Shown here: piece by piece, positions 26,775-39,672 of the stretch
Position numbering within the stretch: the first letter of the stretch is position 1
How the letters are laid out: each line of letters opens with the position of its first letter
Source of the DNA: a virus
DNA: 39,672 nucleotides
Reading direction: 5' to 3' (one strand)
IMG/VR virus record: IMGVR_UViG_3300003691_000024
Coordinates: 1 to 39,672 of that record
Made by a program: the position numbers and the translations under genes
Notes under the pieces: generated by a model
What the model saw: the letters and a program-made list of their open reading frames with translations, nothing else
What the model was told of the DNA's origin: nothing
The model's database searches: none

Positions 26775-27710
26775 TTACGAGACAATAGCCTCTGTTTCAA
26801 TCATATTATAAGTTGATACCATTCTGATTTTGTTCCAGTATTCAACCATAGTGTTTATTTCCTTTTCATCCGTTCCGACTCGCACAATAGATGATTTGTA
26901 AACTTCCCCCATCGCATCCACAACAGCAGGGTTTGTATATATAAAAGTATTCCCAGAATTCCCGCGAACCATTCGGATTGCTTTGTTCATTTGCTGCTTT
27001 GTCGGCAGGGCGTTGTATTCGCCGCTTGTCGTTTCCAGCTCAATATTAGGGATCAGGGAAACATTGATCTTGTTAGCCATCAAGAAACCAAGGTATGTTT
27101 TTATCCTCATGCCATACCCGCCGACCATTTTACCTTTGCGCTCAAATTTATAGAGGTTACCGCCATTATAAGGTTTCAGATCAAACGCCTTGCCAGATCC
27201 CCATCCTTTAGGATCATACAGGCCACCTGTCTCTCCAGGGACATACCGAACAACAATAGCGCTGCTTTGCTTCGATGCGGTTGTCCCTCCGGCGTCCACA
27301 ACGTTTCCGTTCTTTATTGCGTAAGCTCTCAAAGTGTTGTAAAGGTAACTCTTTTCTATATTCTGTCCGGTTTCCTGAAGAATAGACGGAAGCATTTCTG
27401 CAAAATATGTCTGAGCCCCGCCAAATTCATTAGCCTGATCTTCCGTTACTTCAATGTCGCCGCCAATAGACGCAAGGTCCTCGTAACCTGCTGAAGTGGT
27501 TACGTTCATACTTGACAGCTGATCATCAAGATTGATAAGCTGCGCACCGGTTACGCTCTCAAGTCTCCGGAAAACATGCTTGAGCCCCTTGTTTGCTGGA
27601 TACATTGGCAAAGCCGAAAGAACTTCAGCACCCCTCAAGAGGTCTCCAGTAATAAGCCGTTGACCGCTAGACAGCTTATCAAGCGCCACCTTTCTAAACA
27701 GATTATCCAT
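26775..27710 (-). CDS. Major capsid protein, Bbp17-like, 311 aa
   Basis: HK97-fold capsid type without a delta domain: N-terminal helix, a long spine-like helix (ETGQNIEKSYLYNTLRAYAI), and a C-terminal half with NTFIYTNPAVVDAMGEVY and VGTDEKEINTMVEYW, as in BPP-1-like capsid proteins. Pairing with the Bbp16-like gene supports this. ATG 27708-27710 is chosen because AAAGGA lies 9 bases before it; a longer frame from a TTG lies inside the leader terminator. Has its own perfect TTGACA promoter and a structured leader. Confidence 0.85.
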   Translation of the reverse strand: MDNLFRKVALDKLSSGQRLITGDLLRGAEVLSALPMYPANKGLKHVFRRLESVTGAQLINLDDQLSSMNVTTSAGYEDLASIGGDIEVTEDQANEFGGAQTYFAEMLPSILQETGQNIEKSYLYNTLRAYAIKNGNVVDAGGTTASKQSSAIVVRYVPGETGGLYDPKGWGSGKAFDLKPYNGGNLYKFERKGKMVGGYGMRIKTYLGFLMANKINVSLIPNIELETTSGEYNALPTKQQMNKAIRMVRGNSGNTFIYTNPAVVDAMGEVYKSSIVRVGTDEKEINTMVEYWNKIRMVSTYNMIETEAIVS

Positions 27711-27744
27711 CTTCCTGCGTCCTTTGTTTATGTTATTTTTTTTC

Positions 27745-27786
27745 AAAAAAAAAACGGTGTCAAAAATGATTCAAATCAGCACCGTT
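27745..27786 (-). terminator. Leader terminator/attenuator before the capsid gene
   Basis: Minus-strand AACGGTG (27786-27780) pairs with CACCGTT (27759-27753), with an inner TGAT/ATCA stem, followed by T10. An earlier segment CGGTGTCAAA (27817-27808) can instead pair with TTTGACACCG (27764-27755). Both pairings end at the same U-tract. This is a strong terminator between promoter and capsid start. Confidence 0.8.
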
Positions 27787-27932: not shown

Positions 27933-27988
27933 CTTGTGTTAAAATGTGCATGGTGTATATTAGTAATTACTGAAGCGAAACAAATAAA
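27933..27988 (+). promoter_or_regulatory. Duplicated promoter and leader (copy B)
   Basis: 56 bases identical to the promoter/leader that spans the window end and start (39630-39672 plus 26-38). Contains TTGTGT, 16-base spacer, TATATT and the leader up to AAACGGAGA. Flanks differ on both sides, so the duplicated block is sharply bounded. It drives the inverted gene at 28006. Confidence 0.85.
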
Positions 27989-28632: not shown

Positions 28633-29361
28633 CTATTTGAACGCCTCCCCCACTATATCACCGTAAGTGGTGGCCTCTCCACCGTCTCCTTTGTTTCCGC
28701 CTTCTCCTTCGTTGCCACCACCTCCGCCCTTGTAGTCTGCCTTTAATATTGAATCTTTGTCAGGGTGTGTGCTTATCCAGGATTTCGCAGCCTCATCAAC
28801 TCCGGCTGGTTTTCCCGGATCGGTAACAGAGTTCAAAACGTTTCCGGCCCGGTCTGTAAATGTTCCGTCCGAGTTACAGTATTTCCCAAAAATAGCATGC
28901 AGATCATCTTTCCCGTAGATGGTCTTTCCAAGTTCGGCTGAGCTTAACAAATCGGCTTTGACCCCTTTCTCCTGCAACAGTCCAAGTTTTACTTTTAACG
29001 GATCAAGTTCTTTGTTGTGCTTCTCGGCTGCCGCAGTTAATGCCGCCTGAACAGCCTCGTCAACACCCTTCATTTTCCCGTCTTTATCAAGGAGGTTTTT
29101 AACGGTATCTACCGCCTTACCTGCTGCTTTCAAGTCCAGGTCTCCAACCTGAGCTTTCAGGGCCGCAAGGTTTGACTCTGCGGCCTTCATGGCTACCCGA
29201 TTATCTTTTGCTTCCTGTCGGACAACCGGGTTTTCTTTGAAGAAGCCTTCAGCATTAAAATCCGTTTCTTTCCCCGCGTCGTCAACTTGGGTAATCAGAA
29301 CCTTTCCGCCCTCTTCCTTGAAGGCGATCCCTTTCCCGTCCTCTGTTTTTTTTAATGGCAT
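28633..29361 (-). CDS. Capsid scaffolding protein (DUF6651-like), 242 aa
   Basis: Typical scaffold layout: short N-terminal beta part, a long charged coiled coil (residues about 45-150, with AAESNLAALKAQVGDLDLKA and a conserved HNKELDPLKVKL), then SWISTHPDKDSI and a Gly/Glu-rich flexible linker (GGGGGNEGEGG) leading to a C-terminal helix. Located just before the capsid gene apart from the inserted moron. Directs procapsid assembly and is expected to leave before packaging. Confidence 0.8.
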   Translation of the reverse strand: MPLKKTEDGKGIAFKEEGGKVLITQVDDAGKETDFNAEGFFKENPVVRQEAKDNRVAMKAAESNLAALKAQVGDLDLKAAGKAVDTVKNLLDKDGKMKGVDEAVQAALTAAAEKHNKELDPLKVKLGLLQEKGVKADLLSSAELGKTIYGKDDLHAIFGKYCNSDGTFTDRAGNVLNSVTDPGKPAGVDEAAKSWISTHPDKDSILKADYKGGGGGNEGEGGNKGDGGEATTYGDIVGEAFK

Positions 29362-30094: not shown

Positions 30095-31132
30095 TCAATT
30101 AATAGGTATCTTGTATTTATTTTCAAGCTGTTTCAAAGTATACAACTTGCTCGTTCTTTTGTCAACAATATCATTAAAATCTATCAGTCCAGAACGCACA
30201 AGGTCAGCTCTTTTTTTTCCGACAACTGAATTTTGCCAGTCCTTACCTTTTCCGGCCCATCGTTCCTTATAAGATTTATCAGTTAATCCATATTCAATCC
30301 TTTCACGGGAATCAAGATCTCTCTCCGCATAACGGGAATACCTGTTGTCCATCTCCGGGACATCCAGTCCCAGGTCAGCCCATGTTTTTACAACAGGAGC
30401 ATAGACACAGCGTCAATTAGGATGGAAAGGAGTAAGCGCCCTCTGTTCTCCATGCGCCCACTGCTGAGAGTCCATAGCGGCGCACCGGGGGCACGTTCCT
30501 TGCCCGGTGTTCACGTTTCCATTCTCAAGAGTCGATAAGAGCTTGTAACCCTTGACCATGTCCTGATTTTGCGAATACGTCAACTCTCTTGCGTAACTGC
30601 TGGCCGTGGCCGTGTAAGTCCGGGCCTCGGTCTTGATGTTTCTCAGGGTCATTTCAGAGCCAAGAGATTTTTTAATCTCCCGGCTCATCTGAGCAATACC
30701 CTTTCCCTCGATCCGCTTTTCAGTAATGAGTCTCGTTAGGTCTTGACTGATTGCCCCCTCTAATGATCCGACTAAAACTTTTCCGTTTATTTTCTGAGTT
30801 AAAGCGAGCCCTTCAAGCTGATTCCTTGACATGGCTACCGGCTTAAAACCCTCTACGGCTCCATCCCAAGACAACACGGAATCAATGGAAACTTTCGAGG
30901 CCATGCCAGCGGCCCCAAAAGTTCTTGAAACAGGAACCGAAAGCTCAGAGGCAAGGCCAGTCACCACGGCCTCGACTTCCTCAATGGTTCCCAATGTCAC
31001 TTGAGAACTGATATTATTAACAAGTTTAGAATACTCTTTAACTATGACTCCGGCTACCTTGTCCGTGTAGCCGTTCAGCATTGCTTGAATTTCAAGTATT
31101 CGAATCTCTGTTATTTTTTGCTCTATGATCAT
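30095..31132 (-). CDS. Mu F-like minor head protein with in-frame UGA at a conserved Cys (selenoprotein candidate), 345 aa
   Basis: Residues 1-239 form the helical Mu gpF/SPP1 gp7-like domain ending TGQGTCPRCAAMDSQQWAHG and RALTPFHPN. The family motif is C..C ... HPNCRC. Here the first Cys of CRC is TGA (30413-30415), followed in frame by RCVYAPVVKTWADLG and 92 more residues to a TGA at 30095. A hairpin of bacterial-SECIS type lies 21 bases after the UGA. The downstream part has an ATG (30352) but no usable ribosome binding site. If UGA is not decoded, the product is 239 aa and lacks the metal-binding end. Follows the portal gene in a TAAATG overlap, as usual for this family. Confidence 0.75.
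30378..30400 (-). promoter_or_regulatory. Candidate bacterial SECIS hairpin downstream of UGA
   Basis: Minus strand GCTC-C-TGTT pairs with AACA-T-GGGC (one mismatch, one G-U), closing a 5-base loop GTAAA. The loop begins 21 bases after the UGA and its first base is G. Bacterial SECIS elements lie immediately 3' of the UGA, with a short apical loop starting with G (often GU) about 16-37 bases away. Confidence 0.5.
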
Positions 31133-32592
31133 TTATTATCCCCTTGCCCAAAAAGCTTTGAAATATCTGAAAGATCAGTTTCGCCTCCCCTTGAATCACT
31201 GAGAATCATCCCCTCTATGTCTTCCCACTTAACATCCTTGAACGCCTTGAAATTTGGCTTTATCACGTATTCGAAAACAGCTTGAGATGGAAGTTTTCTA
31301 GCGTCAACGAGAATCTTTATCAATTGGACTTGCTCACTAGTAAGAGAGCTGTATCCGAACTCCTTATTAACCGTAGCCCCGCCTTCCGGGAATTCTTGGT
31401 CTGTCTTGAAATCGCAGGCAATAGAAAGGGCAGAGTTACAAACACTTTCCAACTCTGCGGCCCATCCTTTCAGGTCGGCAAGTGTTTTCTCGGTGTCGAT
31501 TACTTTTGTCGTAGCAAGTTCTTTCCCGGTCGGCCTGGAAACTTCGACTCCATACTGTCTGATTGCCGCCTCTATATAGTCGATATGCTTGAAACCAGCC
31601 TCTGTTCCCTTTCCGTTGATCTCAACATATTTTACATCAGCTTCCGTTTTAGAAGCCCCAATACCGAGAAAGCTCGATATGTTGGCAACGACCTTTTTTA
31701 TATCTATCTTACTGCCGATGATCGTCAAGAAAGGAGTTCTTGCGGCAAGGAGGATCCACGTTTCGAGGCTCCAGGAATTCCAATGGGCCTTGGTCAGGTT
31801 GGCAAGGCCCCGCACCGGAGTATCACCGGTCAGTAATGTATCCTGTTTACCAGGGGTATAGGCGACAACCGGAATATATGACAGCGGTAATATAGTTTCG
31901 GATATCTTTTTTTCTTCGTTATCCGAAAATTCATAAACGGTACATTTGCAGGCTGAACCGTCGGACTCATAACACCTTGCTTTGTAAATCGTTTCCTTTT
32001 GATAACTATTATCAACTGTTCTTTCTTTTGTTTCAAGTATACGGAATTCCGTTAAAACCCCGCTCTTGCCAGAAAACCCCAACAAGTCTGTAGAGGGATC
32101 AATGAGCCGAAAATATGGCCTGAGTCCCTGTTCCTTGGCTTCCTTTTGAGAAAGGTTACCGTTAGGTTTTTTAGGACCATCGACAAGGATTATCCCGCTA
32201 CCGAGCCCAAGCCCAAACCCGGCAACATGGCCCATGAACACGTCAAGGCTGTTCCCCTCGGTGTCAGCCTTTGCCTTGATATCATTTACAACATCAAGCT
32301 TCAAGGCATTCTCCGAAAGCTCTATACCCTGCCCCGTGATCCTCCCGGCCCATCCTGAAACACCGATCTGGAAAGCGTTGACGAGATTTGAAATTTCAAT
32401 GCGATTTTTAAAAAGGTCATCACTTTCAACCTTTGCTCGCTTAACAAGATAGGTATCGCCCTTTAGTTTCAGAGCGTCCTCACCTTCCATAAGAGTTTTC
32501 GGAAGGTCTACCTTTTTCCGATAAGCCTTGATTCTTTCTTCAAGATAAAAGGGAGATTTCGGATTGTCAAAGTTTGGTTTCTGTGTGTTCAT
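31129..32592 (-). CDS. Portal protein (DUF4055-like), 487 aa
   Basis: Portal features of the DUF4055 type: YLVKRAKVESDDLFKNRIEI near residue 50, GVSGWAGRITGQG, VFMGHVAGFGLGLGSGIILV, RPYFRLIDPSTDLLGF, and the crown/stem region EAGFKHIDYIEAAIRQYGVE followed by a long helix. It is placed between small accessory genes/terminase and the Mu F-like gene, as expected. Forms the dodecameric DNA channel at the capsid vertex. Confidence 0.9.
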   Translation of the reverse strand: MNTQKPNFDNPKSPFYLEERIKAYRKKVDLPKTLMEGEDALKLKGDTYLVKRAKVESDDLFKNRIEISNLVNAFQIGVSGWAGRITGQGIELSENALKLDVVNDIKAKADTEGNSLDVFMGHVAGFGLGLGSGIILVDGPKKPNGNLSQKEAKEQGLRPYFRLIDPSTDLLGFSGKSGVLTEFRILETKERTVDNSYQKETIYKARCYESDGSACKCTVYEFSDNEEKKISETILPLSYIPVVAYTPGKQDTLLTGDTPVRGLANLTKAHWNSWSLETWILLAARTPFLTIIGSKIDIKKVVANISSFLGIGASKTEADVKYVEINGKGTEAGFKHIDYIEAAIRQYGVEVSRPTGKELATTKVIDTEKTLADLKGWAAELESVCNSALSIACDFKTDQEFPEGGATVNKEFGYSSLTSEQVQLIKILVDARKLPSQAVFEYVIKPNFKAFKDVKWEDIEGMILSDSRGGETDLSDISKLFGQGDNK

Positions 32593-33619: not shown

Positions 33620-34954
33620 TTAAAAGAAACTATCATAAAATTCAACCTCGTCGTTACCTTCAACGGGAAATTCAGTCTCTGACCAATAACCAATGGCAGT
33701 GGTTATATGATGGTACTGGTTCTTTTCGTCCTCCTGAAAGGCTGAATCCTTTTTAACTTGCACCGTAGATAAACCTTTATAGCTCCACTTTGCTTTTTCT
33801 GGATTAACAAAGAATCTTCGTTCACTCAACATATTGCATATTAACGCACGTAAAGAGTTTTGTCTATCTTCAATTGAAGGGTGACTCTTTTTTACATTGT
33901 TAATAACTTCGAATCCGTGCGCCTGTAAGATATCTGTTACTATGTGATAATAACTCCTGTGTCCGTGCTTCGATCCTATGTTTCCGTACGGGTCACCATA
34001 AAGTTTCACTACTCTGTTTTTATGATTTTTATACCTATCAACAAATTCAAGCCCAACGTTTTTCGGTTGCGCAGACTCTAAAACAAGCTCATCAACAATA
34101 TGGTAAATCTCAGGCTCTTTTTCGGTTATTACGGCTGAACACATCGGGGTTTTGTTCTGATCATGTGTCCATATTATTTGGTCGTTTTCGTGTAATGTTG
34201 CACGTGAAACATTCTCGCTCGAAAAGTCTGGATAGATCCGGCCCGAAACAGTTTCAAAGCTCCCTTCATACTCTTGCCGATACTGCATTGGGGAAAGAGT
34301 CCGCTTTGCTTCGAGGATGTCACTTTCTTTTAATAGCTCAGCAGATAACCAATGATAATACCCCCAATCCAGATCTATTTCACTTTTTGCATACTCGGCC
34401 AAGTCGTAATAATGGTTGAGCCCTTCCGGCACCCCGCACAATGTAGCCCCGGCCTGATAACCACCGGGGAAAATGGTCGATAAAGCAGGCCTTAAATGCT
34501 CGGGCCACACGTCAGGCTTTAGGTTTCCAAACTCGTCAATCAGCGCATAAACCCACGGGATGCCTTCGATTCTCTCTGATGACTCTAGGCCGCACACATG
34601 CGCTTCAGAGCCATTCGGGAGAAAAATTATCTTTTCTGTTTCGTTCGGCTTTCTTGGATGGCTTGCAGAAAGAGTAAGCTGCTTGAGGTCTTCCCAAAAT
34701 ATCTTCTTCGCCTGCCCCTCGGTCGGTGCTCCAAACAGGTAGGGGCCTACTTGTCCATTACCCATCATCAATCTAGACAGCGCCCGTTTTGGCATCTCTG
34801 TTTTACCTGATCTCCGGCCAGACGGATTCACGATAAATCTATGAATCCTTGTCAGGATATCGAGATAGTAAGCCTGCTGCCCATCGTGATGAATCAGCGG
34901 GTACCAACGCTCCATCTGTTTTTCAAGGGCTTTTATTTTTCCTGAATTTTTCAT
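33620..34954 (-). CDS. terL: Terminase large subunit, 444 aa
   Basis: Walker A PSGRRSGKTE near residue 45, Walker B VYALIDEFGNL near residue 138 with the catalytic Glu, and a C-terminal RNase H-like nuclease region beginning about residue 255 (MCSAVITEKEPEIYHIVDEL ... VKLYGDPYGN), the usual acidic triad area. Powers DNA packaging through the portal and cuts concatemers. Small subunit lies 2 kb upstream at 36853. An intrinsic terminator (34961-34989) just before its start suggests independent or antiterminated expression. A perfect parS site is embedded in the codons for NVSRAT (34196-34211). Confidence 0.93.
   Translation of the reverse strand: MKNSGKIKALEKQMERWYPLIHHDGQQAYYLDILTRIHRFIVNPSGRRSGKTEMPKRALSRLMMGNGQVGPYLFGAPTEGQAKKIFWEDLKQLTLSASHPRKPNETEKIIFLPNGSEAHVCGLESSERIEGIPWVYALIDEFGNLKPDVWPEHLRPALSTIFPGGYQAGATLCGVPEGLNHYYDLAEYAKSEIDLDWGYYHWLSAELLKESDILEAKRTLSPMQYRQEYEGSFETVSGRIYPDFSSENVSRATLHENDQIIWTHDQNKTPMCSAVITEKEPEIYHIVDELVLESAQPKNVGLEFVDRYKNHKNRVVKLYGDPYGNIGSKHGHRSYYHIVTDILQAHGFEVINNVKKSHPSIEDRQNSLRALICNMLSERRFFVNPEKAKWSYKGLSTVQVKKDSAFQEDEKNQYHHITTAIGYWSETEFPVEGNDEVEFYDSFF
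34196..34211. promoter_or_regulatory. parS: Perfect ParB-binding site parS (copy 2), inside terL
   Basis: TGTTGCACGTGAAACA matches TGTTNCACGTGAAACA at every fixed position. It lies within the terminase coding sequence, so it has been kept compatible with the protein. About 14 kb from copy 1. Confidence 0.8.
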
Positions 34955-35571: not shown

Positions 35572-35863
35572 GCTGAATGGTAATCATTCCAGATTGTTCG
35601 TTTTCAAGAATCTGGTTGCTGACTAAAAGTTCTTCTCTGCCGTCACTTGTTGCGACATATAGCATACTCTCTTCAGTCATTTCTTTCAGGTTCACGACTC
35701 GAAACATGAAAGAACCTGTATCGGGAAAAAGCACATCTAAAAGATTATAGAATATAAGCATACAAAGAAAGCATAATGCGTCAAGGTATTCCTTCTCGTA
35801 AAAACAAGAGATAATTAAGAGAGATAAAATTATACCACAAACGATATTGATAATCGTTCTCAC
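35558..35863 (-). CDS. Small membrane protein, two membrane helices, 101 aa
   Basis: GTG start at 35861-35863 overlaps the upstream stop (GTGA), preferred over longer frames. Two hydrophobic helices (IINIVCGIILSLLIISCF and LDALCFLCMLIFYNLLDVLF) form a hairpin with an EKEY turn, then a soluble C-terminal half. Could be an anti-holin-like or superinfection-type membrane protein; unproven. Confidence 0.6.
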   Translation of the reverse strand: MRTIINIVCGIILSLLIISCFYEKEYLDALCFLCMLIFYNLLDVLFPDTGSFMFRVVNLKEMTEESMLYVATSDGREELLVSNQILENEQSGMITIQLEEI

Positions 35864-36714
35864 GCTTCTACCTCTTCGAGTAATTCGGGAAACTCCCAAC
35901 TTACAGGTGAAGGCTTGCCGCAGTAGCGCCATAGATGTTTATCAAAACGATACACATCTGTTTCCCAGTTACCAGGCCCAGAGAAAAATTCAAACCCATT
36001 CCTTACCAACCACGCCATGACTTCGACCGCACCTTTTACACGGGTCTCGGTTTTCTTTTTCTTGATTGGTTCGGCGTTTCTGTGAAAATCGCCCCCGGAA
36101 CGGTACGGATAATCACTTTCATCACATAGGGAATACGCTGTTATGAATGCTTTCTGATTTTCACCCCTTACCGCGCCCCACACTTCACACTCGATAGACA
36201 AACCATACTTAAGCGACTCACGGACAACAGGGTGACATCCGGTGTAATCAATAGGTTCTGTTTCGTAATCGTCAAGATTTATAATTGCTCCGCACGACGT
36301 TTCAACTTCCTCTTCAAATACAATATCACTGTCAAGGCAGAAATGTTTAGAAGTTTCCCGTCGCCCGGTCAATGCCTTGCATTTAAAAGATTCATATGCA
36401 AAACAGCATGCGTAATAGCTGATATTCCTGGCGTCGATATTCCCGGCCCTGATATTCCCGGCCCTGATATTCCTGGCGTCGATATTCCAGGCGTCGATAT
36501 TCCCGGCCCTGATATTCCCGGCCCTGATATTCCTGGCGTCGATATTCCAGGCCCTGATATTCCCGGCCCTGATATTCCCGGCCCTGATATTCCTGGCGTC
36601 GATTGAAGCCTCTATACAGATATCAAAGTTAACAGTCAAATCTCCATCAATTGTTAATGTTATACCCTCTATAGCAGCAACAAGCTCCTCGTGCGTTTCA
36701 AATGTAACACTCAT
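35860..36714 (-). CDS. Pentapeptide-type beta-helix protein with 12 tandem repeats, 284 aa
   Basis: After 38 residues, 12 five-residue repeats (DARNI, RAGNI, DAWNI) run to about residue 98, a likely beta-helix rod in which Ile and Ala point inward and Arg/Asp/Trp outward. A C-terminal globular domain (residues 110-284) follows with several Cys and Trp (YDFDK-like VYRFDKHLW); no family recognised. Start follows AAACGGAGAGG. The repeat is encoded by near-identical 15-bp units, so copy number may vary between relatives. Confidence 0.75.
   Translation of the reverse strand: MSVTFETHEELVAAIEGITLTIDGDLTVNFDICIEASIDARNIRAGNIRAGNIRAWNIDARNIRAGNIRAGNIDAWNIDARNIRAGNIRAGNIDARNISYYACCFAYESFKCKALTGRRETSKHFCLDSDIVFEEEVETSCGAIINLDDYETEPIDYTGCHPVVRESLKYGLSIECEVWGAVRGENQKAFITAYSLCDESDYPYRSGGDFHRNAEPIKKKKTETRVKGAVEVMAWLVRNGFEFFSGPGNWETDVYRFDKHLWRYCGKPSPVSWEFPELLEEVEA
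36421..36600. repeat. 12 x 15-bp tandem repeat with 60-bp higher order
   Basis: Twelve exact-length units of GATATTCC(T/C/A)GG(CGTC/CCCT). They are arranged as three tetrads (CGTC, CCCT, CCCT, CGTC) with small changes at tetrad starts, so the array grew by 60-bp duplications. Coding on the minus strand; the opposite strand is also open as an artefact of the repeat. Confidence 0.95.
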
Positions 36715-37715: not shown

Positions 37716-37791
37716 TGGCTCCGAGATCAGGACTCGAACCTGAAATACTGGCGTTAACAGCGCCATGCCTTACCGATTAGGCTATCCCGGA
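37716..37791 (-). tRNA. tRNA-Asn(GTT), CCA encoded
   Basis: Full cloverleaf on the minus strand: acceptor TCCGGGA/TCTCGGA (one G-U), D-arm GCC...GGC with GG in the loop, anticodon arm TGGCG/CGCCA with loop CTGTTAA (anticodon GTT), T-arm TCAGG/CCTGA with loop TTCGAGT, discriminator G and encoded CCA. 76 bases. Canonical bases T33, A37 and TTCGA are all present. Confidence 0.97.
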
Positions 37792-39608: not shown

Positions 39609-39658
39609 TACACCATGCACTCTTTTTCCCTTGTGTTAAAATGTGCATGGTGTATATT
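39609..39658 (+). promoter_or_regulatory. Early promoter with 12-bp operator-like inverted repeat (copy A)
   Basis: TTGTGT (39631-39636), 16-base spacer, TATATT (39653-39658). TACACCATGCAC (39609-39620) and its perfect complement GTGCATGGTGTA (39643-39654) bracket the -35 and overlap the -10, so a repressor bound to both arms would block it. The duplicated copy B at 27933 keeps only the right arm. Drives the gene at 59 if the genome is circular. Confidence 0.7.
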
Positions 39659-39672
39659 AGTAATTACTGAAG

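Follow-up and report, generated by a model that had tools for sequence, protein, structure and literature searches.

A MuF/SPP1-gp7-like phage head protein gene with UGA at a near-invariant cysteine codon: a probable selenoprotein

In the window analyzed here, an entire virus record (39,672 bases), a MuF/SPP1-gp7-like head morphogenesis gene (minus strand, 30095..31132) carries an in-frame UGA (minus strand, 30413..30415) at residue 240, where translation and alignment with homologues place the near-invariant Cys of an H-x-x-C-R motif. The best explanation, which comparative sequence evidence makes highly probable, is that its product is this minor (portal-associated) head protein in a selenoprotein form. 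On the minus strand, the ORF consists of 239 codons ending in H-P-N, the TGA, a continuation beginning with R-C that stays open for 105 codons, and a second TGA; the open frame and the 345-aa product claimed in an earlier sequence-only reading can be read directly.

The gene lies in a head module on the minus strand, in the order terminase large subunit (33620..34954, profile matches), portal protein (31129..32592; phrog_145, 9.5e-53) directly upstream of the MuF-like gene (345 aa through the UGA; phrog_241, 8.4e-34), scaffold-like protein (28633..29361; phrog_784 and phrog_206) and major capsid protein (26775..27746; PF20911, 3.7e-10). This is the gene order of the MuF/SPP1-gp7 family, and profile matches place the protein in that family. 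With TGA read as Cys, the match to phrog_241 (head morphogenesis) covered residues 104–341 and spanned both sides of the UGA; the matches to PF04233 (26.7 bits, 9.6e-6) and TIGR01641 (35.7 bits, 8.8e-9) scored slightly below the curated cut-offs. Family membership suggests that the protein would be present in virions. As to the record itself, its first and last 25 bases (1–25 and 39648–39672) are identical, and the element formed by joining them recurs at 27933–27988; this means either that the genome is circular or has terminal repeats, or that the assembly broke at a promoter-like element present in more than one copy. Within a gene at 35860–36714, 15-base repeats follow one another in tandem (NIRAG/NIDAR/NIDAW pentapeptides).

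The 105 codons beyond the UGA (minus strand, 30095..30412) matched the C-terminal profile of the homologues (54 bits, 7e-19), while the other five frames gave nothing. As the match occurs in one frame only, the stretch is coding now or was until recently, and by its homology the in-frame extension exceeds chance. About 11 other ORFs in the set of 44 from this genome end in UGA. UGA is therefore a normal stop of the phage, and a recoded genome, in which UGA would be a sense codon, was rejected; no other real gene in the window appears to be bridged by a UGA. The UGA, its position and the homology of the frame beyond it are thereby established for the window.

In an alignment of nine sequences (the window, with U treated as Cys, and eight phages), C217, H237, C240 and R241 were invariant in all nine. 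The TGA stands exactly in the column where phage homologues carry Cys, as the sequence-only reading had proposed, and the earlier CPRC pair that it described as intact is present as C214-P-R-C217 (minus strand, 30482..30493). An in-frame UGA aligned with the Cys of homologues is what is seen in bacterial selenoproteins. The alignment shows C217 and H237 (minus strand, 30422..30424) to be conserved with residue 240, C217 being its partner; among homologues, C242 (minus strand, 30407..30409) co-occurs with C214 (CxxC...HPxCxC). We further compared 80 homologues from viral and bacterial contigs, each adjoining a related terminase; the codon at the site was TGC or TGT in nearly all of them, and the exceptions had Glu or a degenerate motif.

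One rival to the selenoprotein reading is that TGY recently mutated to the nonsense codon TGA in a phage lineage that is defective or dying out, in which case the gene would be broken and the downstream frame a fossil. One substitution is enough to convert TGC or TGT to TGA, and of the accidents that could befall this codon a nonsense mutation is thus the easiest; no relative is near enough to show that the window's own UGA or the hairpin that follows it is conserved. Broken MuF fragments with stops also exist elsewhere (genomes G064, G331 and G1098). Against this, the 105 codons past the UGA match the family profile with no other lesion, the remaining head module is intact, and of all codons the change falls on that of the near-invariant Cys, as it does in a further three lineages, and one of these is under purifying selection past the UGA. 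We regard a nonsense mutation as unlikely.

These three further lineages, unlike one another and the window, are L039; L217, L229 and L252; and L258 and L263, all of which match PF04233. With the window, sequence comparison gives at least four unlike MuF lineages that carry UGA at this codon. L039, L229/L252 and L258/L263 were found in scans of viral contigs with patterns that demanded UGA (HPN/HxxUR) and that returned mostly random matches besides real MuF genes; since L039 and L258/L263 came from such patterns, their number gives no frequency. L217, in genome G158, surfaced independently when 297 genomes were searched with a profile that did not demand UGA. In such UGA-blind profile searches, UGA at the site was found once in the Deltaproteobacterial samples and in none of 398 genomes of the phylum of G004. 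In eight other genomes (G017, G288, G064, G303, G331, G059, G1098 and G1137), MuF matches contained stops, which were set aside because they were not at the site; these rows were mostly gene ends or broken fragments. L229 and L252 were identical over 9551 nt, and L217 was 99.98% identical to L229, so that the three represent one phage in three assemblies. In L217/L229, only 12 codons follow the UGA (RCCWLPREAAPK), and a Sec form would add a very short tail there, as in L039.

A base-call or assembly error, the true codon being TGC or TGT, would need only one wrong base in a record that comes as a sequence without reads. Such an error would, however, have to strike exactly this codon, and the same codon is TGA in the three assemblies of the L217 phage and in both L258 and L263, which shows that such genes are real elsewhere. 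An error of this kind is very improbable.

A switch between Sec and Cys could be followed in one of these lineages. The site codon is UGA in L258 and L263, TGT in their relative L293 and TGC in their relative L295. L258 and L263 agree at every one of 50 nt between codon −4 and codon +12, an identical run that reaches about 37 nt past the UGA and is the longest in the gene (the next is 32), and 14 of the 16 codons following the UGA are identical. Their dS was 0.16 in the post-UGA stretch as against 1.16, near saturation, upstream; same-residue codon identity in the stretch, though high, is a level that 22 of 245 windows reach and is thus not unique to it. The dN/dS after the UGA was about 0.15, the same as before it, indicating that protein-level selection continues past the UGA; for the window, continued coding is seen as homology of the frame. 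L293 is nearer to L258 overall (dS 0.88). In the 12 codons after the site, 7 of 8 comparable same-residue codons differ between L293 and L258, and no other 12-codon stretch of the gene has so low an identity; between L263 and L293, none of 8 same-residue codons is identical after the site. L293 folds weakly in this stretch. On this comparison, an RNA element after the UGA is kept with the UGA and dropped with Cys, which is the signature of a SECIS. The evidence for a Sec/Cys switch with an RNA element thus lies in this related lineage only.

Leaky or programmed readthrough, in which UGA would be decoded as an ordinary amino acid to give a short and a long product as for phage Q-beta A1, was also considered. 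A UGA followed by C, as here, is a leaky context. It was in phage Q-beta that the readthrough of stop codons was discovered (PMC8310308). The UGA, however, lies inside the conserved domain, and the short form would have neither the C-terminus nor the conserved Cys; at this site homologues carry Cys, and Trp was seen in none. Nor does readthrough fit the nucleotide constraint of about 36 nt downstream of the UGA in L258/L263, lost in the Cys sister L293 as for SECIS-driven insertion. The L258/L263/L293 pattern is predicted by Sec genes with Cys sisters and by neither leaky readthrough nor decay, and we consider readthrough to have very little likelihood in the window.

Past the window's UGA there is a SECIS-like hairpin (minus strand, 30378..30400) with the sequence GCUC-C-UGUU-GUAAA-AACA-U-GGGC, comprising eight pairs and one mismatch. 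The sequence-only reading correctly reported a hairpin with a 5-base loop starting with G, but its placement twenty-one bases after the UGA holds for the loop (GUAAA, 30391..30387) only, as the stem begins 12 nt past the UGA. The folding energy was about −9 kcal/mol (−9.1 to −9.6), which was better than that of most shuffled sequences but weakly so (z −1.8, 8/200). The hairpin satisfies the constraints of the bacterial SECIS (bSECIS) model given in PMC13188914 (GUAAA loop, eight pairs, 21 nt); L039 does so only with its weak closing G-U pair left open. Many Cys homologues satisfy the model too: of 59 put through a permissive scan, 44 had such a hairpin at this spacing past the Cys codon. The window hairpin could thus be a SECIS, but its presence alone is no proof of one; taken by itself, it is not beyond chance. 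Hairpin energy was likewise rejected as a discriminator. The support that the earlier reading drew from the hairpin does not, on its own, discriminate.

The closest MuF relatives of the window are L337 (34% identity over 265 aa, 7e-49), L331, L335 and L338. All four carry Cys at the site and share the window's LExGxxxTGxGTCxRCAA stretch, and near L337 there are a related portal (27%) and a scaffold protein (31% identical to the window's 28633..29361 product). A search of viral contigs with the MuF and portal proteins found no close relatives of the window; the nine-row MuF alignment was too diverse to serve as a search query. The four relatives occur in one bacterial class within the phylum of G001, a genome recorded as Deltaproteobacteria. 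Of the 345 genomes in that class, 282 had SelB above the cut-off, among them those carrying the four relatives. Deltaproteobacteria are among the selenoprotein-rich groups (PMC5029168). Genome G158, the host of L217, has both SelB (366 bits) and tRNA-Sec (52.6 bits) above the cut-off. In the phages themselves, no tRNA-Sec scored above the cut-off; the window does carry a tRNA-Asn (gtt) at 37716–37791.

Together with the three further UGA lineages and the L258/L263/L293 set, the Sec machinery of G158 and the Sec-rich class of the window's nearest relatives favor the selenoprotein that the sequence-only reading had proposed. In the proposed mechanism, the SECIS hairpin within the coding sequence just past the UGA would recruit the host Sec machinery, and host SelA, SelD, tRNA-Sec and SelB would decode the UGA. 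Decoding would rest on the host, with no phage-borne tRNA-Sec. Sec would be inserted at residue 240 to yield the full 345-aa protein, with selenium replacing sulphur in one member of the C217, H237 and C240 set. We infer Sec insertion in the window phage, and with it the role of residue 240. The L258/L263 lineage makes a strong case for Sec, L217 a good one and L039 a fair one; for the window itself, the case draws on the position of the UGA, conservation of the frame and kinship.

Known selenoproteins are mostly cellular oxidoreductases. The window gene resembles bacterial bSECIS selenoproteins, such as the formate dehydrogenase FdhF (PMC13188914), in having UGA where relatives have Cys and a coding-region hairpin just downstream with a loop that starts with G at a spacing of 21 nt; the MuF cases also share relatives in Sec-using hosts and Sec/Cys switching (L258/L263 versus L293). 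It differs from them in being a viral gene for a phage head protein, not a known redox enzyme, with host-dependent decoding. With Mu F-like/SPP1 gp7 proteins (PF04233, TIGR01641 and phrog_241), it shares the domain, the portal/terminase neighbourhood and the C...H-x-x-C-R motif, and differs in having UGA in place of the Cys codon. In the literature covered, the known selenoproteins of viruses are the glutathione peroxidases of poxviruses (molluscum contagiosum and fowlpox; PMC8310308), which are likewise virus-encoded and use host machinery, but these are acquired cellular enzymes of eukaryotic viruses, whereas the window gene belongs to a viral head protein family and has a putative SECIS of the bacterial type. 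Full-text literature searches returned no earlier report of a phage selenoprotein; subscription papers and preprints were outside their scope, and priority is not established. Phages and viruses are absent from the 2026 and 2022 reviews of prokaryotic selenoproteins and from a 2025 paper on new families. It seems reasonably likely that phages of Sec-using bacteria have placed Sec several times independently at a metal-binding or redox site of a virion head protein by borrowing the decoding machinery of the host. No selenoprotein of a bacterial virus would then have been known before, and these would be structural, not enzymatic. Selenium use would in that case extend to phage structure, phage assembly would depend on the selenium status of the host, and failure to decode the UGA could form a host-range barrier. 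The head genes of these phages would be mis-annotated, with the stop called at HPN, and the Sec forms would offer an entry point to the role of the conserved C...H-x-x-C site of MuF proteins.

With regard to that role, C217, H237 and residue 240 were the only invariant columns in a domain alignment over unlike MuF subtypes. A few relatives depart from the Cys pair: Glu occupies the site in L058, L128 and L170 (HFNERS/HYNERS), and His replaces C217 in L120. As C217 and C240 are swapped for His and Glu in these relatives, a metal site fits better than a disulphide, which suggests that the C217/H237/C240 set binds a metal, with Glu as a possible alternative ligand. A C217-U240 selenenylsulphide is the alternative role. 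Among solved structures, there was no relative by sequence and no significant Foldseek match, and the VIA-align rows were rejected as common helical bundles; because no known fold was matched, a metal site could not be read off one. Inteins favor key conserved residues. In L327 (genome G1137, C8:28500-32000), an intein-like insert splits a MuF relative immediately ahead of this Cys; NCBIfam gave no intein match for it. The gene also has a TAG upstream, and the insert junctions read HPR | CFTGDTEVF...YHVAGMYSSN | CRCMKLP.
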